Shown: piece after piece, positions 16,085-57,640 of the stretch
Layout: the number at the start of each line of letters is the position of its first letter
Numbering within the stretch: position 1 is the first letter of the stretch
From: Lasiosphaeria ovina
Taxonomy: Eukaryota; Ascomycota; Sordariomycetes; Sordariales; Lasiosphaeriaceae
Reading direction: 5' to 3'
Length of the DNA stretch: 64,000 nucleotides
Assembly (NCBI GenBank): GCA_033439765.1
Contig: JAULSN010000009.1
Coordinates: forward strand, 310,001 to 374,000
Program-made: the position numbers and the translations under genes
Notes under the pieces: generated by a model
Databases searched by the model: none
Told to the model about the DNA's origin: nothing
The model's input: the letters and a program-made list of their open reading frames with translations, nothing else

Positions 16085-16262
16085 GACATATTTAACTTCC
16101 CTAGATTCTTTCCCCCCTACCTCTGAGTGTAAATAACTTGTTATACAACCACCATGTCTCAATATACTGAAGATAATATGGTCAATACGTTCCTAGACGT
16201 CACGGACAACAAGCTTTCTATTCGTCAATCGGCTCACAAGCACGGAGTTCCCTATCGAACGC
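16085..16262 (+). pseudogene. 5' end of a pogo-like transposase gene (promoter plus HTH start), truncated
   Basis: ATG at 16,154 in excellent context (CAACCACCATGTC) starts MSQYTEDNMVNTFLDVTD, followed by NKLSIRQSAHKHGVPYRTP. This is the HTH_psq-type beginning of fungal pogo/DDE_1 transposases. Upstream 16,090-16,150 has ATATTTAAC and a pyrimidine-rich leader. Homology stops near 16,262, where the sequence becomes the 3' end of an inverted MOB3 fragment. The longer open frame that continues is a chance fusion. This element family differs from the RIP-hit Fot1 at 3,221. Confidence 0.75.
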
Positions 16263-17112
16263 CCAGAGACATGTCTTCCTGCACCGTCGATGGCGTGTTG
16301 GTTGGCAGAAATATACTACTTGGCGGAAACACGTTGGATGGCGAATACATGTTGGAAGGTGGAATCTCGTCTTCGTCTTCTCCTCGCTGCGCGGGAGGCT
16401 TGGCGATGGACGTAGGCACGATCTGTGGTGGGTGCTGCTGCTTCCGGTCGGTACCGCCGTCCGCCAGCGCATTCCCACTCGGGACGCTCTCAAGACCTTC
16501 GGCCTCGGGCGGCAACTTGTAGTTCTCAGCAGGCACGAGGAGGTCGTACATGTCGCAAACTGTCTTGAACAGGACATAGAGCCCCGTTTGCCCCTCGACA
16601 GACCAGAAGACGCCGCGGTGCTGGAACCAGGCGTGAGCAAAGATGCGGTGGAGGCGGCCGAAGACATTGACCAGGTTCTTGAGGGCCGTGTTTTTGTCGT
16701 GGGCGTCAACGACAAAACGGCTGGGAAAGATGTTGGGGTTGGTCACCACGTTGGCAGCCCAGTCCGGCGTGTGGCAGCAGTAGTCGATGGCGCAGCAGCT
16801 CTTTGGGGTGTCGTGCACGGCGCACAGGAACTGCCACTCGCTTGCGCGCATCTCGGGGCATGTGGCGGCGCTGCAGGGCGGCGTGTCGAACAAGAAGCCG
16901 GCGATGAGGCTATTGCACTGGGCCATGAGAAAGCGACACAGCTCGTACAGCCACAAGGTCTTGTCGATGCCAGGCGGCGGCGTAGCCAGCGTCTTGGCCG
17001 TCTCGCGCGTTATGGCGCACGTGTTGCCGGCCGTGTGGTGGTAGTGGAGGGCAGCCAGGTGTTCTTGCAGCTGGAAGGCCGAGTCGAGCTGTCGAGGGGG
17101 GGCAGAGGGGCG
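16252..17112 (-). pseudogene. mob3: MOB3/phocein-family gene, 5'-truncated
   Basis: The minus frame contains LDSAFQLQEHLAALHYHH near 17,075, then the MOB domain. CX4C (CSAATC) and HX4H (HAWFQH), the four zinc ligands of MOB proteins, are all present, along with SEWQFLCAVHD, CCAIDYCCHT and GLYVLFKTVCDMYDL. A Pro/Ser-rich tail ends at a stop at 16,252-16,254. MOB3/phocein acts in the STRIPAK complex. No start codon precedes it: an in-frame TAA lies near 17,115, exactly where DR-repeat sequence (TATTCTCCTTTTTTC) begins. The N-terminal exon(s) are missing, so it is a truncated copy even though the MOB domain frame is intact. Confidence 0.8.
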
Positions 17113-17295
17113 ATGGCTTTATGTATTCTCCTTTTTTCTTACCAGCATCCTTGGAGATGACTTCGAATACCAAGGAAAGGTCGTTCTTGTTGCCTCACAA
17201 GCTCACATCTGTCGTCACTGAGCGGCAGCAAACGCCCACCGGGGCCGCAACAACATTGCCGGCGTCGTCCCCGGTCCGCACCCGGCCCGTCATCG
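17112..17295 (-). repeat. DR repeat fragments
   Basis: TATTCTCCTTTTTTCTTACC (17,126) and GGGGCCGCAACAACATTGCC (17,239) match segments of the dispersed DR family seen at 27,150, 46,430, 52,760 and 60,050. The first abuts the MOB3 truncation point. The second abuts the TATA-binding-protein fragment. Confidence 0.7.
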
Positions 17296-17317
17296 TCTGC
17301 CGAGTCGTATTTTTGGC

Positions 17318-17593
17318 TTGATCATGCGATAGATCAGACCCGGGAACAGCCCAGGCTCATAAGAGAGCTGAAGTTGTGATGCTTGGACGCCAATCCCTCA
17401 AGACGAATAGGGAACTTGATATCGCAAGATGCAACCATGTTCTGGATCTTGAAATCGGTAAAAACTTGGCGTTGAAACCAAGCTTTTGGATAATACGCGT
17501 ATATTTCCGCGACGTAAGCTTCGAGTCGTCCTCCGACTTCGCGCCTGTGATAACCATCTTTCCACTTGCGAAGATGGGAGCAGTCCATGATCA
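17318..17593 (-). pseudogene. TATA-binding protein (TBP) fragment
   Basis: Minus-strand reading gives [35 protein letters not shown], then [32 protein letters not shown] and [16 protein letters not shown]. This is the end of the first and start of the second saddle repeat of TBP. Two small insertions (+1 near 17,465 and +2 near 17,366) break the frame. Homology begins and ends abruptly, covering about 90 of the 180 core residues. TBP is an essential single-copy protein, so this must be a dead duplicate piece. Confidence 0.88.
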
Positions 17594-18225
17594 CAGCCGC
17601 GAAACGCTACGCTTTGGGTTGTACTATTTCAACCGTCAGAACCAACCTTGCAGGAGACGCCCAGCAGCGGCTATAGTTCCAACGCTAGGGACTCACCTCG
17701 GCATTTCTCGCATGCAGTGCAATTGTCTTCAAGTCCAAGCGGCAATCAAGATTGACCGTGGCACGCGTTGTTGAGCTCATGGAGGACCTGAGGGTCCTGG
17801 CCTCCATCTCGGCCCTCCACAGCCCTCGCTACGGCCTCCTCCACGGCCATCGTCACGGTGTGTGTATGTATGTGGAAGACAACTTGCGTTGAGAGTGCTG
17901 CGCCCGCGGGACAATGGCTCTTAGAGAGAGAGAAAAAGAAGAGAGATATATATCCTTGGACTTCTTTGTGAGGAGGAACCGGAGAGATAGATGGATCGAT
18001 GGCTGGCTTTTCATATTCGGAGTTGTATACCATAAGTTGTCTCTCAGAGAGACCATCCTACATAGAACTCGACACTACCTAGGGAGTCACACAAGCATTG
18101 ATATTGAAATCCGCACATTGACACTTTCTCTCCCGCGTGGCTGCGTGACTCTGGACCCCCGTGATTGCCTGTGATCGAGTGGTATTGCTCCCTGGCGTCT
18201 GGAGGGAGTCTGAAACATGAAGCCT
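17594..18225. repeat. DR repeat piece (17,770-17,890) in otherwise unassigned sequence
   Basis: 17,770-17,890 (GAGCTCATGGAGGACCTGAG ... CATCGTCACGGTGTGTG) is the inverted counterpart of 26,130-26,262 and is shared with 28,250-28,345 and 46,790-46,860. The rest (17,600-17,770 and 17,890-18,225) shows no family motif. Confidence 0.65.
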
Positions 18226-18385
18226 GCGTAAAACCACCACAAGAGGTAGCTTACCAAGACTACCAAGAGCGGTATTCGAGGTCGCCCATCCCCCTGCCCG
18301 TCTTGCCAGGTTGGCCAGACTCTACCGGAGTAGTACCCGCGGTGTTGCCAGTCTCGTCGGTATTCGCTTGAGCTGGGCCAGCTGA
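18226..18385. repeat. DR repeat segment, inverted copy of 27,990-28,136
   Basis: The stretch from AAAACCACCACAAGAGG to GTATTCGCTTGAGCTGGGCC is found reverse-complemented at 27,990-28,136 (AGCTCAAGCGAATACCGACG ... TTGGTAGTCTTGGTAAGC). Parts recur at 46,590-46,680, 53,635 and 60,800. Confidence 0.8.
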
Positions 18386-18903
18386 AGCTTCCATCAGGTC
18401 CAGTTCGGGTGTAGGCCTCATGGAGCACCTCGCGCCTTCCCAACGAGGGAAGAGGGTCGTCGGGCGACCACTCCCGCACCGGCTTGCCCTCTTTGAACAT
18501 GTCCTCTGGGACCATCTCGGCCTCGTTAGCCTGGGGGGGGGGGGGTCGTGCCGACGAGGAAATGTGATGAGAGCGGTGATCCAGCGGCATACAGTAACGA
18601 TCCACCTCCACCAAGTCGGGCATGTCTGTGAAGTCCGCTGGGTCATCCAAGACGATGGGGTCGAACTTGGAGCCATCCCCTCCATATGTCTTTTTTTCTG
18701 CCTTGATCTTGGTCCCAACGGGACAGTCCTCCTCCCGAAAGAAGAGATGGGCACAATATTATAAACGCCTTCACGGTGTCTGCTAAAGTGATCCTCATCC
18801 TTGGCGTCGTTCTTTGGCGAGGCCCAAATGGCGCTAGAGACCTTGAGGACGATGCCCCTCTGGGCTTCCGCGCGGCTGACATAGAGAACGCGCAGCGCTC
18901 ATG
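18386..18903 (-). pseudogene. Fragment of an unrecognised protein gene, one frameshift
   Basis: Minus-strand coding-like sequence: SRAEAQRGIVLKVSSAIW, then DEDHFSRHREGVYNIVPI. After a frameshift near 18,735 it reads REEDCPVGTKIKAEKKTY, GGDGSKFDPIVLDDPADF and DLVEVDRYCMPLDH. A stop immediately upstream (TGA near 18,903) and fusion into DR repeat downstream (18,385) show it is an internal piece. A run of about 13 G (18,533-18,545) interrupts it. The protein reads as conserved and soluble, but I cannot name the family. Confidence 0.5.
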
Positions 18904-19016
18904 AGTTCACGGCTGGTCATTTTTCGTGATTTGGTGTCTTGTGGCAGGAACCGCAACATTATTACCCATAGATGGCTTCTTCTTGCCGCAACAGAGTTCG
19001 ATGACTACCTACTCAG

Positions 19017-19386
19017 CTACTTGATGGGTAGGTAGCAAGCCTGAGAAATGGTCTGCCGAATCGTTGTGACCAGGCGTCTCGGGGCTTCCAGCATGCCGAG
19101 CTGTTCCGCTATGGTGGCGGACTCCTCTGCTGTGAATTCGTGAGTGGTATGCTTAACTGAGATCTTGTCCATAGCCGGGGACGGGGCCGCAGCGGCAGGG
19201 CGAACATGGGACAGGCGGAGTGCACCCGGGGAGTCGGCGATGGCCTGGCCAGGGCGAGAGGAGGTCATGCCGCTGGGCGAGGCGGCGGCAGGGGGCAGGC
19301 GACGGGGAGGCACCCTCGTCCATTTCCACGTCACTGTCAAACGTGACAGTGACGGGCAGGGGCGTGTCGTTGCGCCGCTCTGCCAT
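19017..19386 (-). pseudogene. Unrecognised ORF with one frameshift (about 120 aa)
   Basis: ATG at 19,384-19,386 begins MAERRNDTPLPVTVTFDS. A frameshift near 19,300 is needed to join ISVKHTTHEFTAEESAT and QLGMLEAPRRLVTTI before a stop at 19,017. An 8-bp hairpin (CACTGTCA/TGACAGTG) lies near 19,332. Composition is coding-like but no domain is recognised. It could be two overlapping chance frames. Confidence 0.3.
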
Positions 19387-19782
19387 GGTAAATGCCGATT
19401 GCCACTGGTCGGGGTCGGCGGAAGGGGGGGAGGATGGTGGTGGTGGGCAACCAAACCAAACCGAACCAAGCCCAAAAAGAATCGAAGCGCGCGCTCTGGT
19501 ACAGAGCAAAAGGACGTTCCCCTCCGGCCTTGGTCGACTTGGGGGCGGAGGGTGACGCCGAAAGGCTCAAGCGAGCTTGAGCCACTGGTTTGAGCGAGCC
19601 AATTCGTTCATGTCGGCGTGGGCGGGCTGCGATAAAAGACCAGAATGGACGTCTTGGTGGCCATGAGAGCCGGGTTCTTCAGGGGATCAGTTTACCTAGG
19701 CGAGGGTGAGAGGTGAGTTGAATGAGCTCACATATAGAACGGAGAAGACGTATTCGCCCATTCTCAGGGCGTGATACCATCA

Positions 19783-19876
19783 GCTCCGCCGCCGACGCCG
19801 CAGACGCCGCAGACGCCGCCGCTGCTGCCGACACCACTGCCGCCGACGCCGCCACCGCTGCCGCCGACACCACCGC
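19783..19876. repeat. Degenerate GCCGACGCC repeat (Ala-Asp coding potential)
   Basis: Tandem GCC/GAC/GCA triplets for about 90 bp. One plus frame reads alternating Ala and Asp, the minus reads Ala/Ser/Val. It is likely a microsatellite and is not evidence of a gene. Confidence 0.75.
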
Positions 19877-20543
19877 CCACCCGGAGGCACAGGAGCCGGC
19901 CCTCAGAAGTGCGAGGTGGTTGACTATGAGTCTCTGAGAGATGCTCCAGCCATGCTCCCAGGGCTTCAGAAGTAATGATGTCTGTCTCCCTTGCTTTTCC
20001 CTTTTTTTTTTTCCCCTCTTTTTGGCACGTCTCCCTCTAACGGTTATCGCCTTTATAAACATGATATCAGTACATGGGCGGTCTGTTTCTGTTCCTGCTT
20101 TTCCATGAGATACCGACGGGGCGTCATGTCTGCTCCATAATCCAGTGGATTTAAAGCGGTCACGGCAGTCTAGATACAGAGCGGGATGCTCAACACGAGC
20201 GGAAGCGGCCGACGTGATTCCAGCCAAGGCCTTGTGCAAGACAGACGCTGGTGGGAGGCCGGGGCGTTGCTGGTGGGAGGCCGAGGCGTTGCGTGGCCCT
20301 GGCAGGTGGTGCTGGTTCTGGTCGGGGCGGACGGATTAGCATGGATTTGGAGCCTAGTAAGCACAGTTCCGGATCTTGTCTTCACGGCTAGTCTAGATAC
20401 AGAGCGGGATACTTTTCACGGCTGACACGTCACCAAGAAACAACAACACCACTCACGTCCTCTGCGCGCATCGCGGCTCCCCATCACGCCCCCTCCCGGC
20501 CATCTTCTCATCCAAGCACCTCAAGGGCGAACCCATGGCTTCC

Positions 20544-20738
20544 CAGATAGGGTCTTGGTGTTTCGTCCCGCCGAACCGCGCCAGATAGGGTCTTGGTGTT
20601 TTGTCCCGCTGAACCCGCGCCAGATAGGGTCTTGGTGTTTCGCCCCGCTGAACCCGCGCCAGATAGGGTCTTGGTGTTTTGTCCCGCCGAACCGCGCCAG
20701 ATAGGGTCTTGGTGTTTCGCCCCGCTGAACCCGCGCCC
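20544..20738. repeat. 39-bp tandem repeat, five units
   Basis: AGATAGGGTCTTGGTGTTT recurs at 20,544, 20,583, 20,622, 20,661 and 20,700, exactly every 39 bp. The rest of each unit varies slightly (TCGTCCCGC/TTGTCCCGC, CCGAACC/TGAACCC). A sixth partial unit with its right flank is at about 20,848-20,930. On the minus strand the unit is 13 codons (RDKTPRPYLARVQ) without stops, but there is no convincing gene around it. Confidence 0.9.
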
Positions 20739-20756
20739 ACTCAGTAAGTAGAGTTA

Positions 20757-20816
20757 ATATATCATCGCAGTCCCGTGCTAAGTAGATGAAGTTAGCAAGG
20801 GACTGCGATGATATAT
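20757..20816. repeat. 18-bp inverted repeat beside the 39-bp array
   Basis: ATATATCATCGCAGTCCC (20,757-20,774) and GGGACTGCGATGATATAT (20,799-20,816) are perfect reverse complements. A third copy of the arm with its left flank (CACTCAGTAAGTAGAGTTAA) recurs near 20,887-20,923. Confidence 0.85.
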
Positions 20817-20924
20817 ATCGTTGAAACCTTCTCCACTTCTCCCCTGGCCTGGGTCTTGGTGTTTCGTCCCGCTGAAGCCGCGCCCACTCAGTAAGTAGAG
20901 TTAATATATCATCGCAGTCCCCTG

Positions 20925-21090
20925 CAACACAAATCCAACATTACATCGACAGGCTTGTCCTTGGGGTCGTTGTTCTCGTCGTGGCGGCCTAGGCCCCTCC
21001 TGGTGCCGACATCAATGGTGGCGCTCAGGAACATGGAAATGAGCCAGGCTAGAACAATGATATAGTCGTCTAGGCGGACCTTGGGGACGG
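20925..21090 (-). pseudogene. Fungal rhodopsin-like membrane-protein fragment
   Basis: The minus frame gives KVRLDDYIIVLAWLISMF, then IDVGTRRGLGRHDE. This resembles the segment 'LDDWLMLLALL...GLGRH' common to fungal seven-helix rhodopsin-like proteins (PF20684). Only one helix and a loop are present. An alanine-rich low-complexity block precedes it and the tandem-repeat region follows. Family assignment is by eye and moderate. Confidence 0.5.
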
Positions 21091-21264
21091 CTGGCTCGGC
21101 TGGCTCGGCCTGCTCTGCAGCTGCAGCTGCTGCTGTGGCGGCGGCAGACGCGGCGTTGGTGGCGGCTCTGGCTGCGATGTCTGCGGCGGCGGCGGCTGCT
21201 AGGGCGGCAGCTACGGCGGCGGCTGCTGCCATGGCGGCGGCGGATGCGGCAAGATGGCATACCT
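21091..21264. repeat. GCG/GCT/GCC low-complexity block
   Basis: About 150 bp of GCN/GGC triplets coding poly-Ala in two frames on both strands. It separates two captured fragments and is a simple-sequence tract rather than a gene. Confidence 0.7.
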
Positions 21265-21345
21265 ATCTCGGGGAAGCCGTCCTTGTCAAAGTCCAGCTTC
21301 ACGCTGCCTTCGAGGATGAGAAAGGAGATGTAGAACATGTTCTCG
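21265..21345 (-). pseudogene. NSE4 (SMC5/6 kleisin) C-terminal fragment
   Basis: Minus reading QTVENMFYISFLILEG followed by SVKLDFDKDGFPEIG matches the conserved C-terminal winged-helix motif of Nse4 (VENxFYxSFLxxxGxV...GLP). It is about 28 codons long and ends at a GTATGC donor-like site. A second, damaged copy of the SVKL...DFDKDGFP part lies at 21,502-21,552 and a third at 21,940-21,975. Confidence 0.65.
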
Positions 21346-21396
21346 ACCGTCTGCCCACACTCGTTTGGGCAGACGGTCGAAAACATTTTCTACATC
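21327..21396. repeat. 31-bp inverted duplication of the NSE4 piece
   Basis: GATGTAGAACATGTTCTCG...CTGCCCA (left arm) is mirrored by TGGGCAGACGG...TTTTCTACATC (right arm) with about two mismatches and a short CACTCGT spacer. Each arm carries the same NSE4 codons in opposite orientation. Confidence 0.85.
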
Positions 21397-21405
21397 TCCG
21401 GCCAC

Positions 21406-22022
21406 CTGGGGACATTGCTCGCAAAGTCCCGGGAGAGCTGACGGCTGGGGACATGGCTCGCAAAGTGTAGGGAGAGCTGACGGCCGAGGGGAGACGGAAA
21501 CCGGGGAAGCCGTCCTTGTCAAAGTCAAGCTAAGCTTCACGCTGCCTTCGCGACGAGGATCATGTTGATGAGCTGAGTGGCATGCGGCGGAAGGCTCTGG
21601 CAAAGCTCAAGATGGTTCGCAGCTAGGTACTCGGGAAAGTCGTGCTGCATGTCTGCGGGACATGGCTCGCAAAGTGTATGGAGAGCTGACGGCCGAGGGG
21701 AGACGGAAACCGTCAAAGTCCTCCTCGCGTCATGGGGTTGTCGGGTTTGGCGGGGTAGAATGTGCCGTTATTGTATACATGGATAGATATATATAGGATG
21801 TTGGGGTCCTCGTAGAACATGTTCTGAATGCCGTTTCCGTGGTGGACGTTCCCAGTCCAGGAGAGCTGGGGCGCTGGAGGCCGTGGAGGACTGCGGCAAG
21901 CGTCGGTGTGCCGGGCGGTGACTTCGGTGACTGGTTCTCTGCACATGTCAAAGTCAACACGCTGCCTTCGCGGACGAGTACATCTCCTCGAGACGTTCCT
22001 CGGTGACTGGTTCTCCGCACAT
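21406..22022. repeat. Patchwork of short local duplications
   Basis: The sequence GGGGACAT(T/G)GCTCGCAAAG...GAGAGCTGACGG occurs at about 21,409, 21,448 and 21,659. GGCCGAGGGGAGACGGAAACC occurs at about 21,482 and 21,692. A motif CGGTGACTGGTTCTC(T/C)(G)CACATG occurs near 21,928 and 22,000. GCCGTCCTTGTCAAAGTC occurs at 21,275 and 21,508. Lengths are 20-60 bp and orders differ, which suggests templated insertions. Confidence 0.8.
21728..21872 (-). pseudogene. HDA1-type (class II) histone deacetylase fragment
   Basis: Minus reading gives LSWTGNVHHGNGIQNMFY, then EDPNILYISIHVYNNGTFYP and AKPDNP. This is the active-site region of class II deacetylases (normally DWDVHHGNGTQ...FY.DPxVLYxSxHxY..G.FYP). 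The catalytic-site stretch before VHHGNG reads SWTGN instead of DWD, so the metal ligand is lost. About 48 codons are present, with abrupt ends in the patchwork. Confidence 0.75.
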
Positions 22023-25000
22023 GATGATAGTGACGGAGAGGGTATGATGGTGAGTATCATCGCTCTATTCGTAGAATCTAAAAAGCGAAGGAAAGAAAAA
22101 GGAAAAGAACGTTCCAAATTCTGCGCGGGGTGCGGGGCGCGGGGATGTAGGCTGGTTTGTGGGTCACGAGGTAGGGCTTGGCACGGGCCACCAACAAAGG
22201 CCAAAAAGAAGAACAACCCCACTGTGCCCCGTCCGTCACTGAGTTGCGCCCTGCAGCCACTGCTGGCGCTGGGACCCGACTGGCACCGACACACCCTGAT
22301 GCCTGCCAATGGTCACGGCACCTGGTCGCCGCCAACCGGGCGCCATCTTTACCGGCTGTCTGGCACCTGCCGTGACTGTCTGGCACCAGGCAGATTCTCT
22401 TGTCCACAAATAGGAGGAACCGATGCAACCCCGCAGAAACAGGGGCTGCACAGCACGCACTCTAGTCGGGCGTAAAACTGACCGCTTCTCTGATTTGGGA
22501 ACCAGGGAATCGTTCGGCGAGCGCAATACGATGCGCAACTAGTGTTCGAGCTCGGCGACCTCATTTCCCAGACGGCACGATGGCCAATGTGGGCACAAGT
22601 AGCTATCTACGGAGTACGACGTGGCATGCTAGATGATCTGATTGGTAAAGAATGCCCGGAAGGAAGTATTGCTATATAAATCCTGCCTTAAGTATTCTTC
22701 TCTTTAAGCCGTCCCTCACTTCTCCCGTGCCAAGTTTCCGCAGCCCATCTCCAGAACTCCGGTGTATTTTTCTCTTACTTAGGTCTCGACGACAAAGTGC
22801 ACGGTCTCTGATCAAAGTTTCTACAGAAATTTAATTTCGCGCCGTATTTCTTCGGCAGTGTGGGAGTTCTGTGGCTAGCAGTTGGTACGCTTGGAGGCCG
22901 CTAGCAGGCTGGCCGGATCGTCGAACCAAATATATACCACTGGTGTCTCCCCGCTATAGGCCACACACCAGTTGATAAGGTTAAAAGCAGCGCAGCGTAT
23001 CTGTATTGTAAACGGGGGGGCTCTCTGAGTCGGCATAGCTACATTCTCCTCCGCCTCGTATCCGCACACATCGGCGACGTGCCCTGCGTCCGCCTCAAGC
23101 ATTTAAAATTCTCCGGTAACCGGTAACCCCAGTTCGCCCGATACTGCAGAAAAACCCGCTCTTATGAGAACGAGACCACAAACCCCTAGATACAAGATTG
23201 AAGAATACCTCACAGCATCAAACATAGTTATAGCTACCCGCAATTAGTATGATATGCCATCCGAGTAGCCCCTTGATTTGTACCACGCCAAGACGTCCGT
23301 TATAAACATCAGGATCATAATAATCCCCATGGTTACGGGGAAGTTCATGTCGAAGCTTAGACTCTTGGAGGGCGGGCGGGCTGGGATTGGAAAGCGAGAA
23401 AGACGGCGCGTGGGATTATCGACTGCCGTATGCGTCCGGCGTCGTCGCCTGCTTCAACCGTTCGGCTCTGGAAAAGGTAATCTGGTAGTGACGGTGTTAG
23501 GACTGGCTGTGCTGCTCAATTGCAAGTGTTCAAAGTAATGGCTTTGCTATGGTGCAATAACTCTTTCAGAGGGTGGGGAGCCTGTGAAAGTTATGTTGAT
23601 AGACATGGCGAAGCGTAAATACAGCCTTCCCTTGAAGCGGGATTCCCACCCTTAAGCTCCGCCCCCAAAGGGAAAAAGCCCGAACCACGACCAGTTTGCA
23701 CCCCCGCAGGTACTGCAACCTGCCACGCGCGAGATGAATGAAAATAAACGCCCCCAAACCATAGTCGGGCGCAAGGCTTGTCGCCCCCCGAAAAAGCCAA
23801 CGCCGATTTCCGGCGGCGGCAGAGCTGAAGAAGCCCGGGCGGTATCGAAATTGGTTCCAAAGTCAATCCCGGAAGAATCAGGAGCGTGACGCAGCAGACT
23901 GGGGCTCGGAGTCCGAAGGATGGTACCACCCGTGTGCCTCAATCCTTTGCGCAAAGCAACGTCAGTCAGGCTAGACCGAAAGACCCCCTGCATCAGGCGA
24001 CATGGATTTTGCTGAGAGACTTTTTTGTCCCCTGTCGTGTTTGCCGCTTGTCGGTTCCCAACCTTCCCCTTCCGTCCAGCCCAGACAGCCACCCAGAAAG
24101 TAAGGGGGGCTATCCGTCGGAACCGAAGAAGGCCGATTCTTTCCCTAAGTAATAAGCGGCGACTCACCTGTGCCAGCGAGCGAGAATGGAGTTCATCGCT
24201 GGTAGGTTGCTGCTAACGGTTGCCATGTGGCAGCGCGTTGCCCACCAACCTAGGCTCATGCGGCTCTTATCTGTGAGTAAATGCCTCAACAGACTCTTCC
24301 CCTCCCAGTAGTCATGGGGCGTACTAGCACGGTCTGCACGGTTTCAGCGCCAAATCCTTCCGAAAGGATAGGCAGTGACGTGAAACGAATCACGCTTCAC
24401 GCACGAAGTGGGCACGGTCGATTCGATAACTGCCCGGACCAAGCCGCCAGATGCTGAAAAGTCCGGCGCCAACATGATCAATGACCTAGCCACGAGATCA
24501 ACCGTTCTTGAATTTTGGGTTGAGCGAGGCCGCTACGGTGGCTACAGCTTCTGAGCTCCATAATTTCAAAATTGGAGCGTCCTAATCTTCGAGTTAACGG
24601 GGCCATGATTAACGCCCGACCCAGCGTCACAGACACGGGAGAAGCCCGAGTAGGTGGTACAGATGCGACCTAGCGGCACAGACGCAGAAGAGGCAGAGAG
24701 AAGACGCATGGAAGGTCAATGGAAGGCAACTAGAAGGCGCCATGGAAGACCCATGTCTTCCATGGAAGGCGGATCGAACGTGTCCACGCTTTCATTTGCA
24801 TCTGCGGCTCTAACCGCTGCCCATCGAAGAAAGCGCGCCGGACTCGGCTGACCGCCATCTCGTCAGAGGACGAGGCTGCGTTATATTCATATATATATAC
24901 AGCCGATACAAAAGTCGCCATGCCCCCGATCCATGTGCTTTTCGCCTTAAAGCTCGTCAACTTGGATCAGTCCTACCCGTTCCTGCATTATACCTCACCA

Positions 25001-25549
25001 CCAGTACAAAGGGATGGAGAGCAACCACGACAGCTCTAAGACGTTCCTGCGGACATATATATTTGTTGTCTTTTGTGGTCTGAGCACTATACCTAAATGA
25101 TGGGAAAAGGCCCTGGATAGACGGTTCTACAAGACCAAGGACAAGAAGAGGTGTTTGGATGTTGTCCGCTCGCCGTATGTACGCGATGACCACTTCGACG
25201 AGCGTTTGGCCAGTGTGGCGGTGGAGGTCCGTATCACATCCCGCCGCAAGCTGGTCTGGTTGCTTTTTTTTTTAAAGTTTCCATTCTTCCTCGTGGTCAA
25301 TAAAGTTATCAGGCAAGTGCAATTCTCACGGTGAGAAAGACGGAAGCCGGCATTCGAAAGGCTGACCTTACAACACAGACTTGCCCGGCGGTTGGGAATA
25401 AACTTGGTCCCCGAGTAAGGAAGCGGACGACGTCAGTATAACGAGCGAGAAAGTGCAGGACGTGGATATAACGAGTGAGTACATGCAGCTAAGGAGAACA
25501 CGGCGGAGCCACCATCCCTCATCTTTTCTCATACAAATGCTAATGCTAC
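22023..25549. other. About 3.5 kb without a recognisable gene
   Basis: Short overlapping frames only. Points of note: an isolated fungal-type TATA box (TATATAAATCC near 22,673) followed by CT-rich sequence but no matching ORF; long minus and plus frames at 23,590-24,200 that code low-information proteins in both strands; a small palindrome around CCATGTCTTCCATGG near 24,750; and AT-microsatellite ATATATATATAC near 24,890. I cannot support a gene here. Confidence 0.5.
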
Positions 25550-25949
25550 AAAGCTATGGGGATAGAATGTCGAGAAGCGAACTCACTGGCCCCCCAAGCT
25601 ATTTCCATCCAAGCCGAGGTTGAGGCCATTTTGGGGTGGCCCGACCAAACACGGGGACGGCACGGCTTCGTCTGCGTTGCAATCTCGTACATGTCGTCAC
25701 ATCGTACTGACTCCCCTCCACACAACCAGCCGGCTGCGCCGTGGTCTGCGTGTGCTCTGGACCTCGCCATAACTATCAATGCACATAGGTATCAGAGTCT
25801 TGCCGGATGGGGGAAGATCAAGGTCTTTACCGAGCACAAGTCTGACGTGAGGCGGAAGGGCGTGGCCAGCAAGCACCATCAAGGATGCGCTGCATTCGAC
25901 GTACCCTCGCACACAAGACCTTCCTGGATGAAGACGGAATCAACATCGC
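25550..25949 (+). CDS. Weak candidate ORF, product unknown
   Basis: ATG at 25,556 opens a frame that runs into the DR repeat (stop near 26,018). The first 130 codons (MGIECREANSLAPQAISI...) show no domain, signal peptide or membrane segment. The opposite strand is also open. It is listed only because the stretch is otherwise empty. Confidence 0.15.
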
Positions 25950-26262
25950 GGCGGCGCCGATGGAGACGACAGAACACTTGGGGGGTGGATGGAGAAAATC
26001 ACTGCCAAGGAAGCTGCTAAGGAAAAAGGAGAGAATGCATGAAGGCATCGTCCAAATGCACAAAGGCATTGTCCAAATACATCATGGGCGGCCGTCAAGC
26101 CCTTCTTTATCGAGGACGACGCGGCCGACGACGCTTGAGTTATCTTCCACATACATACACACACCGTGACGATGGCCGTGGAGGCCGTAGCGAGGGCTGT
26201 GGAGGGCCGAGATGGAGGCCAGGACCTGAGGGTCCTCCATGAGCTCAACAACGCGGCGGCCG
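25950..26262 (+). repeat. DR repeat, forward copy
   Basis: This is the clearest forward copy: GGCGGCGCCGATGGAGACG, then GAAAATCACTGCCAAGGAAG, GAATGCATGAAGGCATCGTC, GACGACGCGGCCGACGACGC, CACATACATACACACACCG and ATGGCCGTGGAGGCCGTAGC. Reverse copies are at 27,150, 28,250, 46,320, 52,652 and 60,470. In this orientation ATGGCCGTGG opens an Ala/Glu/Arg-rich coiled-coil-like frame that is broken in every copy in the window. Confidence 0.85.
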
Positions 26263-26690
26263 AGCTGTTCCGCAAGTGCCAGATTCATAACGAAGGGGGT
26301 GTATACTGGCAGACCCATGCTGACGGGAGTCCATCGTTCATGCGTAACACGTTCAAGTGGCGCCTTGAGCTCGTCCTGGGACACGGAGAAGCTCTGCACG
26401 TGCACCACCTTGTTCTTCGTCTTGTCGGGGGTTGTCCAGGACACGCAGGACGGCTGCGGCGGCGAGGCGCGGACGGTCGAGTACGAGCAGTAGGTGTAGC
26501 CGCCGTCGAAGATGCCGATTCTGCGCAATGCCGGGTCGATGCTGAGCGAGCGGTCCTTGATGCCGCGGAAGGCAGCCTCGGCCACCCGATGGTGACATCC
26601 AAGCAGTTGACGAGATGACAGCATGGGACGCTGATAGAGCGTCCATCGTTATCTCCGAGTCCCAGTCATCTGGCACCCTGTCCACCACCA
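26263..26690 (-). pseudogene. Unrecognised protein fragment fused to DR repeat
   Basis: The minus frame is open and coding-like: IKDRSLSIDPALRRIGIF, DGGYTYCSYSTVRASPP, VVHVQSFSVSQDELKAP, RWTPVSMGLPVYTPFVMN and LALAEQLGRRVVELMED. It then continues into DR sequence after about 26,262. It could be one exon of a real family whose DR-derived end is secondary. The family is not known to me. No clear start is found upstream of 26,690. Confidence 0.35.
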
Positions 26691-26739
26691 CATGTAAGGG
26701 TGGGCCACAGGCTCCTCCGAGGGCACCTTTCGGGATACA

Positions 26740-27130
26740 GATGGGAATTTGGTCAATGGCAGAAAGAAGCTCCAGACTTGGCTAAAGGATTTCGGTCACA
26801 AGCTTGATTGCCCTGGAATCCAAAAGACCCAAGGGGTGGTTACCATCTCCTTTGCTCAGTTATATGAGTTAGTACAGGAGAGTGAGGCTTTGGATCAGAT
26901 AGATACGGAAGCGGAGGCGGGGGTCGGATGAGGTTCTCAAAGGTAGAAGCAGGCAGAAGGTGGTCAAGCGGAAAATGGTCCGCCCGTCGCACGAGAAACT
27001 CACATGCTCCGACGAGGAACGGTTTAAGGCAACCGAGAAAGAAGTTGAGGATCAGCTCAGCGACCAGGACGAAGATTATACCCCAGAGTAGGATTATATC
27101 TTGGGGCAGGTGGCAAAGATGGAGCTTGTA
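26740..27130 (+). pseudogene. Unrecognised coding remnant with one frameshift and one stop
   Basis: Plus reading gives KKLQTWLKDFGHKLDCPG, TQGVVTISFAQLYELVQ and SEALDQIDTEAEA. After a frameshift near 26,930 it reads KVVKRKMVRPSHEKLTCS, EKEVEDQLSDQDEDYTPE, TAG, then DYILGQVAKMELVEYLD. It is strongly coding-like, acidic at the end, and ends in DR repeat (27,140). Perhaps it belongs to a lineage-specific multicopy fungal family. Confidence 0.4.
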
Positions 27131-27430
27131 GAATATTTAGATCCGTGCCTTCATACATTCTCCTTTTTCCTTAGCAGCTTCCTTAGCAGTGATTTTCTGC
27201 ATTCACCACCCCAAGCGTCTATCGTCTCCATCGGCGCCGCCGCCCGAGCCAGCATCCTGGTCTGACTGACCCCCGCCACCAGGGCCGCAACAACATTACC
27301 GGCGTCGTCCGCGGCCTGCGCCCGGCCCTTCATGAAGGACCTGAGGCCCCTGGCCTCGATCTCGGCCTCTTGGGCCCTAGTCTCGGCCCGCTCCGCCCTG
27401 TGCTCGGGGTGGCCTTGGGCGTGGTATGGC
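27131..27430 (-). repeat. DR repeat, reverse copy
   Basis: CATACATTCTCCTTTTTCC, GCAGTGATTTTCTGCATTC, CATCGGCGCCGCCGCCCGAG, AGGGCCGCAACAACATTACC and CTTCATGAAGGACCTGAGG occur in order, all shared with other DR copies. It is adjacent to the coding remnant ending at 27,130. Confidence 0.8.
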
Positions 27431-27935
27431 CTTAGGCGTGGTGAGCATTCTAATCTTAGTTACCGGAGTCAGAAAGAATTCTATAGTTAGCGGAGTCGTA
27501 GACCTTCTATTCCACGATTACTAAACGGATACCAAAACATAGAAACTAGCTCTTACCCCTACTCTCTCTTCTCTCCGATGCCTGTCTCTTCTTCCTTGGG
27601 CATCTCGAACAATGATATAACTCGGGACCGCTTGAATTTGTCCGTGGCCTTGCGGTAGCTTCCCCTGAGGCTTAGCTTGGAGACCTTGTGGTTGAGAGTG
27701 GTAAGCGTCTCCTCCCCTCCTTTATCAATGCCCTTGCCTTTATTAACGCTGATAACACGAACACTCATCTTCTGCTCTCCTTTCTGCTCTGTATGGCTAT
27801 CGCCATCCTTGATCTGCTAGATGGGTGGATGCTTTTCTTGCTGAGTGGAGAGCGGAAAAGGAGAATTTGCGCAGGGGTAAGAAGGTGGAGGACAAAGGAC
27901 AAGGCAGTTAGGATCTCCCTAGTCCGACCAATCCT
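27431..27935. other. No recognisable gene
   Basis: It contains short, unremarkable frames on both strands and CT-rich sequence near 27,700-27,790. No motif, transposon end or RNA gene is seen. Confidence 0.4.
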
Positions 27936-28345
27936 CCCCCCCCGGCTCGGACAAGCAGCGATCACCTTGGCGGTAAGGCCAAGGGCCCAGCTGGCCCAGC
28001 TCAAGCGAATACCGACGAGACTGGCAAGACGGCGGGTACTACTCCGGTAGAGTCTGGCCAAAACCTGGCAAGACGGGCAGGGGGATGGGCGACCTCGAAT
28101 ACCGCTCTTGGTAGTCTTGGTAAGCTACCTCCAAAATATAGCGCCTCCATTGTCCCGCGGCCTCCTCCACGCTGAGTACACCTTCTTGTTGTGGCCTCGA
28201 TCTCGGCCTCTTTGGCCCTGGTCTCGACCTCTTTGGCCCTGGTCTCGGCCTCCACAGCCCTCGCTACGGCCTCCACGGCCATCGTCACGGTATGTGTATG
28301 TATGTGGAAGACAACTTGCGTTGAGAGCGCTACGCCCGGTCTCGT
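27936..28345 (-). repeat. DR repeat, long reverse copy
   Basis: It runs from CCCCCCGGCTCGGACAAGC through CCTTGGCGGTAAGGCCAAGG, AGCTCAAGCGAATACCGACG, CCACGCTGAGTACACCTTC and TCTCGGCCTCTTTGGCCCTG repeats to GTGTATGTATGTGGAAGAC. It is the most complete reverse copy and defines the order of DR segments. It overlaps the unoccupied insertion site of the Tc1 element at 53,719. Confidence 0.85.
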
Positions 28346-28560
28346 CTATCCACCCATAGCAAAACATTACGCCACCTCCATCTCCACGACTGCCGCTTGC
28401 ATCCATCTCGCAACGGTACATAAGATGTCTGCCCTCCCGGGTCTTCTTCACCTGGACACCTTCAGGGTGCATCTAGGCTTCTCTGGCCCAACGAGTTCTC
28501 CCCCATGGACGCCTATAGATCCATGGACCGCAATCTGAATTGTGACAATATAGACTTTAA

Positions 28561-28953
28561 ATGTCTATCCCTACCAAACGAGTGACGGCCAAAGAATTTA
28601 TGGAGACTCGGGTGGCTTCGATCCGTTTAGACTACGGAGCGTGAATACGCTCGTGAAGCAGTCTGGGCAGATGGAAGAGTCCCAGCTCGTTGCATTCGTC
28701 AACGGAGAGGCCAAGAGGGAGACCGTTCTGAAGATAGCACCCCCAGTGGTGGATAGCAATGGTTTTGTGGGTGAATCTGACGAGGGTAGCGGCCCTAACA
28801 ACCTCGTCGCCATTGCCGTGTGTTCTTGGCACCTTCATGTGGCGCATTGGGCATATAGGTGGGGAAACCGCCTCCCTTTTCCAACAAAAAAAGCCACGGT
28901 GGTTGAGTCGAGCGGTCAAGGCTCCCGCACCCAAAAAGTCGAAAAGCTAATTT
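28561..28953 (+). pseudogene. Unrecognised ORF remnant, frame broken once
   Basis: ATG at 28,561 starts MSIPTKRVTAKEFMETRV but stops at 28,652. A second frame (DSGGFDPFRLRSVNTLV, KRETVLKIAPPVVDSN) continues to 28,955. A single frameshift near 28,610 would join them into about 130 codons. No family was recognised. Confidence 0.3.
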
Positions 28954-29065
28954 GATTGCAGAAAACTTGCTTTGTACAAAACTGTACAACACACTGGTGT
29001 TCGAGTCCCGTCGATGTCCTTGGACCGCAGTTGTAATAAAATTGCCTTCGATCATAGCATAAGCG

Positions 29066-29114
29066 CCCTATACCCTATACCCTATACCCTATACCCTATA
29101 CCCTATACCCTACC
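29066..29114. repeat. CCCTATA heptamer array
   Basis: Six perfect CCCTATA units (29,066-29,107) followed by CCCTACC. It resembles a fungal telomere repeat (CCCTAA) with one extra base per unit, or a microsatellite. Confidence 0.9.
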
Positions 29115-29884
29115 ATAGTAAGCCAGTTCTTGGTTACATCTATTCTTGGTTAGTTTGGGGCTGCGTGGTGCAGGGTCGAGAAAAATCGACACAAAAAAAA
29201 AAAAATTGTAAAGTGAGTTAAGATTTCCGGCCCTCGACCCGACTAACTGAGCTTTTTTATTATTATTTTTTTAAGTTTTTCCCTTCTTTAGATAATGGCT
29301 TTATCCGTGTATAAGGAAGATAGACCACATGCCCCGCTGATGAGAAGCGGGTATATAGGAAACAAAACACGATTCTCGTAGCGCGACAAATACGCCGTTC
29401 TTGATCGAGAGCCGCCAGATGGCCTCATCGTCTAGTGATAGACCTTCAACTTGTCCGAGGAGTGCCTTCTCAAAGAACGGCTTACTGAGGCCTACTAATC
29501 GCGGCTGTTTATCGAGGACCGCCGCCGCGACGGCGACGACGATGACGAAAATGACGATCGCACAAGCGGATATTGGGACCTGGCTCGGGGTGGCCTTCCT
29601 TGGCCGTGGTGGGCATTCTGCTCACTCTTGGTATTTGCTAGCTGCATCGCCGAAAGGCGAAAAAAACAGATTCGCCATCTGGAGGGCTGGGCACCTGACC
29701 ATACCTATTTTGGCCACGCCCACTTTTGGCCCCTGCGTAAGCCACTAAAGCTACTATATACTTATACCAAATGTAATAACCTGTTTTTTCTTCAATACAC
29801 CGTAACTTCCCCAAAACAAGACCAAATTCCTCCATTTCTACTGCAAACGACAGCTCTTTGAGTGCTCTTTCGAACGGTGCCTGA
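29115..29884. other. No recognisable gene; A13 run
   Basis: AT-richer sequence holds an A13 run near 29,193 and a T-rich tract near 29,255-29,275. A short plus frame from 29,401 is not recognisable. Confidence 0.4.
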
Positions 29885-30240
29885 ATGCAGCGAACTGAAA
29901 ATGTTGCAGGCGATGCAAAAGGTGCGCGAAGGCATTCGGGTGCGAGTGCCCGCGCGGCTCTGGAATGTGGCGTTCCAAGGTCCTCTCTTCGCCACCGTCT
30001 GGCAGGCCACAAATCGCGCCACGTTGCATTCGAACACATGCAGGGCCTTACGCACGCTACGGAAGCCCGGCTGGCCGAGTGGATCCTCTTTCAAGGCGCT
30101 CTCGGCATGCCTCCGACCTCCGACGCATGCGCAGGTCCGGGAGTTCGCCCGCCGGCTCGCCGTGGAGGGAGGGAAGCCGGACTGCGCAGGACCGAAGTGG
30201 TTGCGCGGCTTCCTGGCGGCACCAATTATCACGGCTTGGT
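29885..30240 (+). pseudogene. pogo-type transposase N-terminus (HTH + CENP-B domain), frameshifted
   Basis: Across two plus frames: GVPRSSLRHRLAGHKSRH (HTH) and AFEHMQGLTHATEARLAE, then after a frameshift near 30,115 HAQVREFARRLAVEGG and PDCAGPKWLRGFL. This is the two-part DNA-binding domain that begins fungal pogo/Tan-like transposases. The DDE catalytic part is absent. It is the third distinct pogo-class piece in the window. Confidence 0.75.
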
Positions 30241-30920
30241 TCAACTACCTAGCCCTCCTGGCAGTCCCTGTGCGAGCAAAAATGGGGTGCAGTCTTATCT
30301 TAGTAAACTCAGACGTCTTTTTCCAGGCAAGGGGCGGGGGGGGTTGTGGATTGAATGGCCCACGAATGCCGGAAGCCGAGACGGACAGGACCGGGATAAA
30401 GTCCCGTCCCTGAGGCGGGCACAGGTACCCTGCTCTTGGTTGTTCCAACCCGGAAGGAAGCATCTGAATCGTATTAGCCCAGGTTCCTTGCATGGAGCAT
30501 TTCTCTTCACGACCAAGGTAACTTAGCTGTCCAAATTCCCGGGCCCCAAGCTGTGGGCCATCTCACGCATCCCCTGGGCATACTACGTCATCCGGGGGGG
30601 ACTTGTGTAAGAATTGATTCCAAATGACTTTCTAATCCTTTCTGAACTAATTCATAACCTACGGCCTAGGTTACATACCTAGGTACCTCCAGGCGCGCCC
30701 AGTATCAATCTGCCGTGCCCCTGTTGAAGAGACACATGTTCCATACCAAGAGGCACACGTTCCATACAGAGAGAGTATCGACGGTGACGCCGATTACCAC
30801 TCGGCCGAGAAGACTCCACTGATCCGCCGTAAGGAATAGGCTGGCCTGTGGGCGTCTGTGCATGAGTAGGTGCTTCTGAATCAGCAGGTTCCGGTGAATC
30901 ATGCAGCGCTTCTGAGCCAC
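30241..30920. other. No recognisable gene
   Basis: GC-rich overlapping frames are present on both strands with no motif. It contains runs of 7-9 G (30,338, 30,592). Confidence 0.4.
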
Positions 30921-31035
30921 CAGGCGCGAATGAACCGTATGTCGCAGCATGACCGCGTGCGACAGATTGCTCTTTATCTTCTTTGCTGGGGCGAGGCCAA
31001 CCAGGTCCGCGCTTTATGCCGCAGAAGCAACCCGT
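30921..31035 (+). pseudogene. FKS1 (1,3-beta-glucan synthase) fragment
   Basis: The plus frame reads ARMNRMSQHDRVRQIALY, then LLCWGEANQVR. After two extra bases it reads RFMPQ in the next frame. This is the very conserved cytoplasmic motif before FMPE in fungal FKS1. About 37 of some 1,900 codons are present, with abrupt ends. It is an exon-internal piece, so it is a dead duplicate of part of an essential cell-wall gene. Confidence 0.85.
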
Positions 31036-31477
31036 GTCGGGCGCTGCGCGGGAGCGAGCGCAATCGCCAGATGCGTCGGGATCGATCCCGGGATCGCGAC
31101 ACGGAAAACCCCCCCTTGCGCAGGCAGGCACAGCGTACTGTGAATGGCCTCACAGCTCCCCAGCCTGCTCGCGGCGGCCGTGGTAGTAAGGCGCAGGGAA
31201 CCCATTGGGACGCGGTTCGCTGGGTCCCAAGGCCCTGCGTTTGGCAGCCCATGTGCAGACAGTACAGAGATTCCTGGTCTTGCGGGTGTTCCACGCCAGC
31301 CCCTGAGGGGGTGTGTCGGAAGAAGCCGCATCATTTGTGGGCGCAGGTGGCGTATATGCTAGACCACCTACGGCCCAGTGCGTGGGGGGAGGCGGAGTTG
31401 GCGCATCGGGTGCGGTGGGAAATTTTGCACGCGGTGATCAACGACATCTTGAGGGACGGATCGGGGGGCACCAGTTC
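31036..31477. other. Unassigned sequence between captured fragments
   Basis: The frame after the FKS1 piece stays open to about 31,600, but the protein (AQVAYMLDHLRPSAWGEAE near 31,345) is not recognised. It may be a further fragment of an unknown gene. Confidence 0.3.
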
Positions 31478-31730
31478 CATTCAAGCTCACCCGCGAATGG
31501 TACCCGGGGCAGATGCCAGGGGGTTAGTAGCACCAAGGATGGCTTTAACGACAATGTTAAGTTTCTTGAGCTTCGTGTTAGAGATGGTGGAAAACTCATA
31601 GCGGCCGGTCTTGACGGCATCAAGACCCTCCCAAACAATAGCGACGATCGGGCCGCTGTTCATGTCTAAAGTAGAGGTTAGCAAGAACCCAAGAATCAGG
31701 TACGACGGTAAACATACAGGCGGCAAGGCT
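31478..31730 (-). pseudogene. Nucleoside diphosphate kinase fragment with introns
   Basis: Minus strand: exon piece [22 protein letters not shown] (about 31,608-31,671), an intron-like stretch with CTTAAC branch site and ...AAAG acceptor (about 31,550-31,607, its donor GT damaged), then exon [17 protein letters not shown] (31,490-31,549) ending at a GGTGAGC donor. Upstream another intron (GTATGT ... GCTAAC ... TTTAG, about 31,672-31,722) follows a short exon end. The catalytic histidine exon is missing. Intron retention shows DNA-level copying. Confidence 0.85.
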
Positions 31731-32424
31731 TTGTCTGAGTCCCGTGCACATTTTCGAGGAAGTTTTTGGTGGGAAACGATGCGTGTCTCGTATCGAGTTA
31801 CAAAAAACCAAAGAGGAAGCGCCTTCGGGTGCCGTCAATGGTGCCAGCAGCCGTAAAGGGACAATTGTGAGAGGGAGAAACGACCGCCGCCCTGCATACG
31901 ACATTAGTTTGATGGAGTCTAGGGAGAGCGCTAAAATCCTGTCTGAGTCCCGTTTAATGAAGCTGTACGGCTAGGAATAAAGATGTCTGCGTTACTGTTA
32001 GCAATCACCACCTTTCAGCCATTCTCAAAAGCCTGGTGGACAATAATGTCAAAATTGCTGTGGTGTCGACAAATAGCAGCACCTCCGTGTACGTGGCAAT
32101 TCCAAAGCCGGCTCATTTAGTAGTAGTTCTTGTAAAGACTAACTAGATAATCCGCCATCTCCCAGGGCTAAGCGCGCATTATCACAAATTATCGTTAATA
32201 GAACCACTGCATTTGACTGCATGCATACCTTATGCAGGAGTGGGAAATGATAGCAAGTGACAAAGCAGCCAGAATGTCCCACCCGCCGCTGCCCGACTTC
32301 ACCATGCGCCGGCCAATACCACCACGCCACCTCAACCCAAGCCATCATCCCATCATCCCATCGCCCCATCACCCCGACCATCCACTACAATGGCATCCCT
32401 ATGCTGCCGCCGGTTGAACTGACC
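31731..32424. other. No recognisable gene
   Basis: A short plus frame near 31,744-31,974 and scattered small frames occur. There is a run of CATCCCATCATCCCATC-like tetranucleotide-rich sequence near 32,345. No motifs. Confidence 0.4.
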
Positions 32425-32550
32425 ATCCCAGAATCACGCGCCGTCTTCGCGAGCTCAATGTCTTTCTCGGAGAGGCTCCCGTGCACCACAAATATTGCAG
32501 ACCTAGACTTCACCCCCCCAAGGGAATCATCCTCTCGGGCGGCGGCCACG
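32425..32550 (+). pseudogene. GMP synthase (glutamine amidotransferase domain) fragment
   Basis: TRRLRELNV, then in the +1 frame SERLPCTTNIADLDFTP, then back in the first frame PKGIILSGGG. This is the start of the class-I amidotransferase domain of GMP synthase (RRLREL...DFTPKGIILSGGP). The frame changes are +1 in a T run and +2 in a C run (7 C near 32,512), which together restore frame. About 40 codons are present with abrupt ends. Confidence 0.82.
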
Positions 32551-34355
32551 CTGATACGGCGCTTGTGCCGGAGCTCGTGCAGCCGGCAAAGAAAGTGAAG
32601 GCGGGGGTGCGAGAAGACGCAGTGGGTGAGGCGCCATGGGAAGAGCAGAGAGAACCGCGTGGATGCAGCAAAAAAGGTGGATTACCTAGCTCTGGGATCG
32701 ACCCAGGGCGGGAAACAGGACTACCCCGGCGCCAGACTGCCAGACTCGGAGTGTATAGGCTGTCCCTCCAGGAACGGAGAAGGGGGCAGAGGCTCGCAGT
32801 AGTCTTTAGGGTATGGCGGATATCACAGGGTAGGACGTGGAGTAGAATTAGAACATACACCAAGTCCGAAGCGGGATCCCGCTTCCAAGGCCAAGCAGGC
32901 TCTTATGGCTGCGGCTAGAGAAGGAAACAACGTCGCTCGGGAGCGAGATGGAGGGAAGAGTTGGAAGCGAGATGGCGGGCAGAGTAGGGAGCGAAATAGT
33001 TGGCATCGATAAGCTGCCAAAGGGCACTAATTCCTGGGACGAAGCCAGCGTAGCCAAACTTCAGATCAATCGTACCGTAATTGACTACATATGCATCCGG
33101 AATTGTCGAGATCACTGCTTTCTTGAGCTTCAAATGCAGCCGCCAAAGCCTTGGTGATCCGGTGGGTCCCTATAGTACTATGCGTAGGCTTTGTAGCGCC
33201 CCCCTCTACCACGGCGGGTAGTGGGCTTAGAAGCCTGAGTGCCAGATCTTCGTGATGCCTGTAGAGCAACAAGAGGCTCTCTCAGTCTCTCCCCATGCCC
33301 GCTCCCAAGTCCGTCCCAAGTCCGTCCAGCTCGAGTGAGCAACTCTAAATCCTTTCTGAACTCGTTCTAAACTGATTCCAAATTAATTAGACTTCAAAAC
33401 CCTTCGGTTGTATACCACGTCAAGTTTTGAGCCCTTGTCCGGAAGCTTACATCCTTCAACGTGGATGGTGCCACGTCTTTCTAGGTAGGTGAGCAGGGTA
33501 CTCACCAGTGGCAGGCAGTGACGATTGACCGTGGGAACCAATCACGAGTCCAAATCCCGCGTGTTCAATCTGCGTTGCTCAGCTGGTCGACGATAAAGGA
33601 CGCGTCGGCGGCGCGGTCCCAGTTGTCCCACGTAGGACTGTCCAGTTTGTACGTTTACTGTTTACTTCAGCTTGCTTGGGGCGTTATGTTTTCGACCTTC
33701 AATGCTTCGGCCACCACGCCTTCCATGTGGGAGGGCCTAGCAGACGCACAAAGCGCGGCTAGTAACCTTTCCCGTCTGTAGTGGGAGAAGGCTTCTCTTT
33801 CTCTTCGAGACGCAAGACGGGCGGTTGATCTGCCAAGAAGACCTGAGCGTGCGTGGTACGGAGCAGGTGGCACGTACGGCATTGCCATTCATTGTGGTTT
33901 TGAAGTTCGGGGGCTTGTTGATCCTTTCTAGCCCCCCGCACCGCCTCCCTTCCCTTCAGGGGAAAAAGCAAAGACCGATCGCCCGGAAACCTCTACTGTG
34001 CTTCAGAGACAGACGACAACACGGGCTGGTAATCGGGCCCAGACTTGTCGACAACGTCGTCGAGCGCCGCGGCGTACCGCCCCCCGCCGGAACTTTTCCT
34101 GCCACGACCTGTTGATGGAAACAAGAATGTTTCGACCCGGGCCGGCCGAGTGGAGTCGTGGCCGCTCGTCAGCGAGTTGGGACGAGCAAAGCCTCGGCCC
34201 CCGGCCCCGGACCATAAGCGGCATTTTGCGCGGCCGGCCAAACATTGGCCAGGCATCAGACGTATCAAAAATTCGGAATGGATTTCAGGCGGGCCGGCTA
34301 AGACCTGGGTCCATATGGCGTGGGGTGGCTGTGGTAATGTAGGATCAGGATCAGA
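32551..34355. other. About 1.8 kb without a recognisable gene
   Basis: The plus-strand stretch near 32,680-33,000 (VDYLALGSTQGGKQDYPG near 32,670) is coding-like but unassigned. Elsewhere overlapping frames of both strands give no motif. No transposon ends are seen. Confidence 0.4.
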
Positions 34356-37599: not shown

Positions 37600-37667
37600 C
37601 GGACACGAGTTATCTTCCACATACATGCACACACCGTAACGATGGCCGTGGAGGCCGTAGGAGGGCT
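37600..37667 (+). repeat. DR repeat fragment
   Basis: GAGTTATCTTCCACATACATGCACACACCG and ATGGCCGTGGAGGCCGTAG are shared with 26,135-26,195. It leads directly into the palindromic repeat. Confidence 0.75.
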
Positions 37668-55900: not shown

Positions 55901-55929
55901 CTCTGGGCCGGGGGAGGCTAGGACTACTA

Positions 55930-57608: not shown

Positions 57609-57640
<32 letters not shown>

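Follow-up and report, generated by a model that had tools for sequence, protein, structure and literature searches.

Capture of short segments from across the genome

The 64,000 bp stretch of Lasiosphaeria ovina DNA considered here (the window: positions 310001-374000 of C32, a 2.5 Mb contig and one of the 32, C1, C2 and so on, that make up the 51.7 Mb genome) consists from about 14 kb onward of a mosaic of captured segments, recurrent modules and transposon pieces (14000-64000), which continues past the window end. The evidence makes it probable that templated insertions at DNA breaks have accumulated here over a long time, forming an archive. A sequence-only reading had seen here a capture site of about 16 kb, filled with exon-scale fragments of conserved housekeeping genes. 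The observation is confirmed and the interpretation partly supported. Gene-fragment capture is borne out: donors are still in place elsewhere in the genome, and the identity of some copies (98% in the window, 99.7% between two patchworks) marks them as young. The extent was underestimated, since the zone runs from about 14 kb to the window end, with recurrences over the contig's first ~1.07 Mb; nor are the pieces exon-scale, their boundaries falling inside exons and introns being carried along. Several pieces of conserved genes could be typed as such, but most segments show no recognisable conserved gene, and the stretches at 29.70-30.27 and 53.8-55.0 kb are transposon.

Between about 14 kb and the window end we counted at least 44 segments traceable to at least 33 donor loci in the organism's own genome. 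They are 61-743 bp long (median 193), 82-98% identical to their donors (median 94), and together account for 10,052 bp in the mosaic and 4,841 bp in the interval initially singled out. These counts are lower bounds because the own-genome DNA searches scored only the best 39 of 470, 39 of 156 and 39 of 474 candidates. The 44 were picked by hand from the search tables, one rhodopsin half coming from a separate comparison. Left out were segments with several core places (22056-22196, 26714-27147, 29696-30267, 33020-33262, 40879-41003 and 46936-47379), the transposon at 53794-55038, 20160-20925 (C6 and C27), matches below 82% identity, every match to the first ~1.07 Mb of C32, and matches whose sole place outside C32 is C6, C11 or both (among them 19786-20159, 28842-29386, 50233-51384, 55056-55207, 55325-55460, 57969-58112 and 59678-59857). 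At least two retained segments have a second place: 19173-19512 (on C6) and 33684-33987 (at C32:739595).

Core regions behave differently. As a control, 10 kb of C12 gave just two matches, both of them mosaic copies of its MOB gene, and 6 kb of C30 gave 15 matches besides itself, none longer than 75 bp. The length and identity of the pieces, set beside these two controls, exclude a chance origin. The C30 control also exposed a dispersed family of ~66 bp, in which ARAGORN found no tRNA. Three pairs of donor loci each lie within 30 kb of one another (p 0.03 against random placement).

Junctions, nesting and the nature of the template

Many pieces abut directly. At 17 junctions exact microhomology ranges from 0 to 7 bp with a mean of 2.6, against 0.69 for random joins (resampling p 0.0002); these junctions, 13 in the window and 4 in a related patchwork on C6, are those at which both neighbours had a fetched donor, that is, the assemblable ones rather than a random sample.

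Pieces also lie within other pieces. A patchwork of 1,179 bp interrupts a rhodopsin gene piece, with an overlap of 1 bp, and a piece from C12 splits a sequence resembling part of C2 with no loss and with four filler bases that repeat the next four. Overall, in three of the five nested comparisons nothing is lost and the target duplication is 0-1 bp; these three clean sites read T|C, C|A (or G|C, given the 1 bp overlap) and G|G, none of them A|T. Such nesting bears on the idea that the mosaic consists of segmental duplications decayed in place by deletion and rearrangement, with no capture. Decay of that kind would account for internal deletions such as the 268 bp missing from the MOB piece and the 206 bp missing from the C12:3227813 piece, and for the neighbouring or separate pieces that come from a single donor locus. 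It is nonetheless highly unlikely: neighbours derive from different chromosomes yet meet to within a few bases, the sequence interrupted by each of the five nested inserts is known in uninterrupted or nearly uninterrupted form, and at least 33 donor loci are represented in 50 kb.

The copies of the TBP and nucleoside diphosphate kinase (NDK) genes retain their introns, as does the rhodopsin piece, judged by reading its letters; from the TBP and NDK copies it follows that the template was DNA. Retroposition had been the first idea, suggested by donor matches with gaps of 66 bp (in a transposase), 206 bp (in the C12:3227813 piece) and 268 bp (in MOB), and was rejected when these gaps proved not to be introns. 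RNA-mediated insertion more broadly, whether of retroposed sequence or of cDNA-templated filler, has in its favour that some captured pieces are genic and transcript-sized; the retained introns and the non-intronic gaps render it very improbable.

A related patchwork on C6 and the recurrent modules

The patchwork on C6 is an insert of ~1.3 kb, comprising a MOB piece, a module, pieces from C28 and a TBP piece, inside a dispersed repeat whose uninterrupted form is present on C1 and C29. It sits between two adjacent bases of the C1 form, with no base lost, and its ends show microhomology of 0 bp on one side and 4 bp on the other. Within it, two pieces of C28:2629420-2629930 lie in inverted orientation, joined at 7 bp of microhomology; a second same-locus inverted pair, from NSE4, lies in the window. 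The MOB and TBP pieces on C6 are shortened versions of those in the window, with inner junctions in common at 97-100% identity and different ends. One patchwork, or a common ancestor, therefore templated another, the direction of copying between C32 and C6 being one that we infer.

To the possibility of an assembly chimera or contamination we give almost no credence. The evidence does come from one assembly, but the donors belong to that same genome and differ from their copies by 2-18%, and this, with the inner junctions common to two places whose ends differ, makes an artefact very unlikely.

Adjoining the repeat that holds the C6 patchwork is a 516 bp sequence (C6:133338-133853) 100% identical, after rounding, to C31:1704096-1704611; the pair possibly reflects a very recent insertion.

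Modules recur beside the captured pieces. The one at 17764-17906 adjoins such pieces, and parts of it are found at 25948-26255, 27133-27407, 28157-28338, 37607-37682, 46308-46955, 52645-52783, 55457-55686, 57410-57634 and 60429-60626. We considered that they might be the ends of one transposon, and dropped the idea because in the window module ends are scattered, not fixed. A wider version, in which a transposon of the Pack type (with terminal inverted repeats) or a Helitron captured the pieces and the modules belong to the element, draws on the recurrence of modules next to captures and on Helitron_like_N proteins at seven places in the genome, that at C32:828653 being without a stop. It remains decidedly unlikely, given the scattered module ends, nested inserts of differing make-up, a C6 insert (the one insert examined in full) whose two ends are unlike and lack a duplication, clean sites that are not A|T, and, for three of the five comparisons, target duplications no longer than 1 bp. 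On termini the evidence is the scatter of the module ends, no search aimed at Helitron or inverted-repeat ends or hairpins having been made. Of the mechanisms proposed at the outset, templated end joining thus fits, and Pack-type and Helitron capture do not.

Gene pieces and other components of the mosaic

A donor place in the same genome was found for nine of the eleven genes originally named, FKS1 and GST being without one. MOB3, TBP, rhodopsin, NSE4, HDA1, NDK, DHH1 and a methyltransferase hold; FKS1 and GMP synthase are read from short pieces, and GST is unconfirmed: two frames gave no Pfam family, no donor was seen, and only a GST-like motif could be read. NOT1 is an addition to that list. 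Pfam gave no family for several further donors.

The first part of the mosaic opens with the MOB3 piece (16263-17107, minus strand; donor C12:4389871-4390987), in which the 268 bp internal deletion is not an intron. Pfam identifies MOB in the window translations at 16531-17007 (E 9.5e-23) and in the donor, whose protein matches that of Lasiosphaeria miniovina at 277 of 284 aligned residues. Seven of the 11 substitutions read from the alignment are amino-acid changes, which fits a copy free of constraint. At three sites the copy carries the donor's residue, not that of L. miniovina, which weakly suggests that the piece was captured after the two lineages split. There follow a piece from C28:1287821-1287881 (17149-17209, 95%); the TBP piece with its intron (17309-17763, minus strand; donor C1:7671128-7671593, typed by reading its translation), with two TBP Pfam stretches within 17376-17587; and a piece from C1:1422917-1423234 (17924-18243, 97%). 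The fungal rhodopsin halves, on the minus strand, lie at 19619-19770 (C31:1001130-1001281, donor typed by Pfam) and 20950-21089 (C31:1000991-1001130), separated by the nested insert at 19771-20949, whose inner pieces match C11 and C6. Next come the NSE4 piece with its overlapping inverted copy (21246-21399, the copy at 21354-21399; donor C32:2136793-2136916; Pfam NSE4 at 21216-21368, with a short inverted stretch at 21346-21399), the NOT1 piece (21539-21649, minus strand; donor C1:7691062-7691172, Pfam Not1; window Pfam 21546-21650) and the HDA1-type deacetylase piece (21724-21862, minus strand; donor C27:149063-149200, Pfam-typed; window Pfam histone deacetylase 21737-21847).

A six-frame Pfam scan of 26000-30900 gave no family. 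Within that interval two pieces of C2:303948-304621 are joined at 6 bp of microhomology (26278-26720, minus strand), a piece from C31:2584897-2585344 lies at 28347-28804 (minus strand, 94%), and a dispersed, multi-copy Tc5/DDE_1 transposase piece, its donor typed by Pfam, occupies 29696-30267 (plus strand). The FKS1 domain 1 piece (30954-31016, plus strand) spans 21 residues (E 1.3e-6), its donor not located. Three pieces then overlap in series: the NDK piece with introns kept (31481-31722, minus strand; donor C27:2819754-2819993), whose scores are weak (E 8.7e-5 in the window, below the Pfam cut-off, and 0.0053 in the donor); a piece from C9:71237-71474 (31720-31957), overlapping it by 3 bp; and one from C12:1354100-1354411 (31954-32266), overlapping the C9 piece by 4 bp. 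The GMP synthase-like piece (32350-32543, plus strand) matches C28:239123-239313 at 97%, with a weak E of 0.003.

Further on are the DHH1 (DEAD helicase) piece (46123-46318, plus strand; donor C23:4795353-4795552, Pfam-typed); a piece from C1:1421822-1422003 (52877-53058, minus strand), whose donor lies ~0.9 kb from that of 17924-18243; and a DDE_3 transposon copy whose open frame spans 347 codons (53794-55038, minus strand; 97% to C7:344113, 96% to C27:15429). A piece of C12:6004093-6004431 (55865-56520) is split by the methyltransferase piece (55990-56369; donor C1:2496549-2497027), with microhomologies of 7, 4 and 1 bp; Pfam types that donor as a methyltransferase, the sterol type claimed for it being unproven. 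The sequence resembling C2:144041-144598 (57807-59495) is interrupted twice, by 57910-58425 (from C12:3227813-3228531) and 58592-59277 (from C5:604361-605045). In 60133-61633 modules separate pieces from C1:6752569, C1:2651323 and C28:1292214-1292931.

Three other sequences were noted in the zone. The ~3 kb at 42782-45699 is collinear with C32:1277777-1281041, to which it is 69-78% identical: an old relative amid an otherwise younger mosaic. At 37668-38062 a 78 bp unit is present as two tandem and, ~80 bp off, two inverted copies, a potential hairpin, with related sequence at 60240-60356. Tandem units at 38629-39558 (such as 33, 54 and 66 bp) are related to those at 50511-51001 (33 and 42 bp) on the opposite strand.

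Elsewhere on C32, places with common modules or captured pieces range, among the matches listed, from ~9 kb to 1.07 Mb, a range that excludes multi-copy families and the NSE4 donor at 2.14 Mb; C32:627250-630367 is a further patchwork of the same make-up, modules and core pieces. The first 300 bases of C32 contain no telomere repeats.

Repeat-induced point mutation

The mosaic is bordered by GC-poor dispersed repeats with many copies genome-wide (1-12000), strongly mutated by repeat-induced point mutation (RIP): GC is 0.39-0.43, TpA/ApT 1.59-1.84 and (CpA+TpG)/(ApC+GpT) 0.15-0.41. From 14 kb onward composition and RIP indices are mostly close to those of the core control, reaching ~1.1 at 54-58 kb. 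Twenty donor-copy comparisons yielded 251 substitutions with no overall bias, 90 being C>T/G>A and 86 T>C/A>G. By context, C>T was found at 39 of 811 CpA, 26 of 792 CpG, 12 of 752 CpT and 12 of 871 CpC sites; C>T being commonest in CpA, mild RIP is possible.

All 44 segments are shorter than 800 bp, roughly the length limit for RIP cited in work on Fusarium poae (PMC4994206), and the shortness of each piece may be what allows gene duplication of this kind to last in a genome competent for RIP. At 1.24 kb, the transposon copy at 53.8 kb is above that limit, and its frame is still open, with no strong RIP. For closely placed repeats in Neurospora, RIP sets in at 155-220 bp (PMC4858203). Given the CpA excess, the indices of ~1.1, the open transposon and the Neurospora limits, we do not claim that all pieces escape RIP through length.

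Mechanism and enzymes

On the templated-insertion reading, a break in this part of the chromosome would have its gap filled by short copied stretches, the polymerase switching template at a few shared bases. Whatever DNA was at hand would serve: single-copy genes on other chromosomes, transposons, older patchworks. The ends would then be joined without target-site duplication, and repetition would nest patchwork in patchwork; some pieces, the recurrent modules, would be common because they were re-used as templates. We infer both the initiating break and a polymerase other than Pol theta. A genome search for the DNA_pol_A family gave a single place, matching mitochondrial Pol gamma (E 1.1e-159), and Pol theta is therefore probably absent.

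Several points weigh against this reading. Microhomology is absent at five of the 17 junctions, one of them with four filler bases, and plain end joining therefore contributes. The methyltransferase piece splits the C12:6004 piece with 54 bp lost, and the overlap where the C5 piece splits the C2-like sequence is imperfect and ambiguous, up to 8 bp. One of the Helitron_like_N proteins is on C32; six of the seven have stops and none lies in the window. The break and its repair are deduced, not observed, and the concentration in one arm is left unexplained.

Relation to known systems and significance

Templated insertions at breaks are known chiefly from yeast mutants, cancer cells and genome editing; insertions in dna2 pif1 yeast were reportedly the subject of Yu et al. 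2018. Insertions at yeast HO breaks (PMC11724301) resemble ours in their distant nuclear sources, several pieces each, and few-base microhomology. Distant inverted insertions there have microhomology of 2-11 bp (median 6), and inverted pieces from one locus have longer microhomology, as in the 7 bp of the C6 pair. Unlike those of yeast, the insertions here are natural, fixed, nested over time and concentrated in one arm, with pieces of up to 743 bp and a presumed break. In animals and plants templated insertions are usually made by Pol theta (PMC9779921); the mosaic resembles its end joining in microhomology and templated filler, and differs in that no Pol theta was found.

Pleurotus Helitrons are said to figure in a study grouped with Helitron gene capture. 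Helitron and Pack-type capture (fungal Helitrons: PMC5148889) likewise yields composites of unrelated host gene fragments while the donor stays in place, and Helitrons make no target duplication; here, by contrast, module ends are scattered and three clean sites are not A|T. The supernumerary chromosomes of Fusarium poae (PMC4994206) are also a compartment rich in core-gene duplicates without strong RIP; the genes there exceed the ~800 bp limit, whereas the scraps counted here are shorter, and their contig bears core genes such as NSE4 as well. No comparable fungal account was found in the literature surveyed, most subscription journals lying outside its reach.

It is unusual that the insertions are concentrated in one arm, that patchworks are re-used and that duplicates survive without strong RIP. 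A further conjecture, which we hold to be unlikely as a whole, is that the arm is a self-feeding archive: patchworks would be preferred templates, pieces would be short enough to evade RIP, and homology to essential genes (TBP, NOT1, NDK, FKS1), with some inverted pairs, might make the archive a hybrid barrier, either by giving rise to silencing RNA or as DNA left unpaired when strains whose archives differ are crossed. The region looks like a natural record of many templated insertions in a filamentous fungus without detectable Pol theta. With donors datable by divergence and junctions that can be counted, the rate, the choice of template and the enzymes of the process could be studied over evolutionary time.

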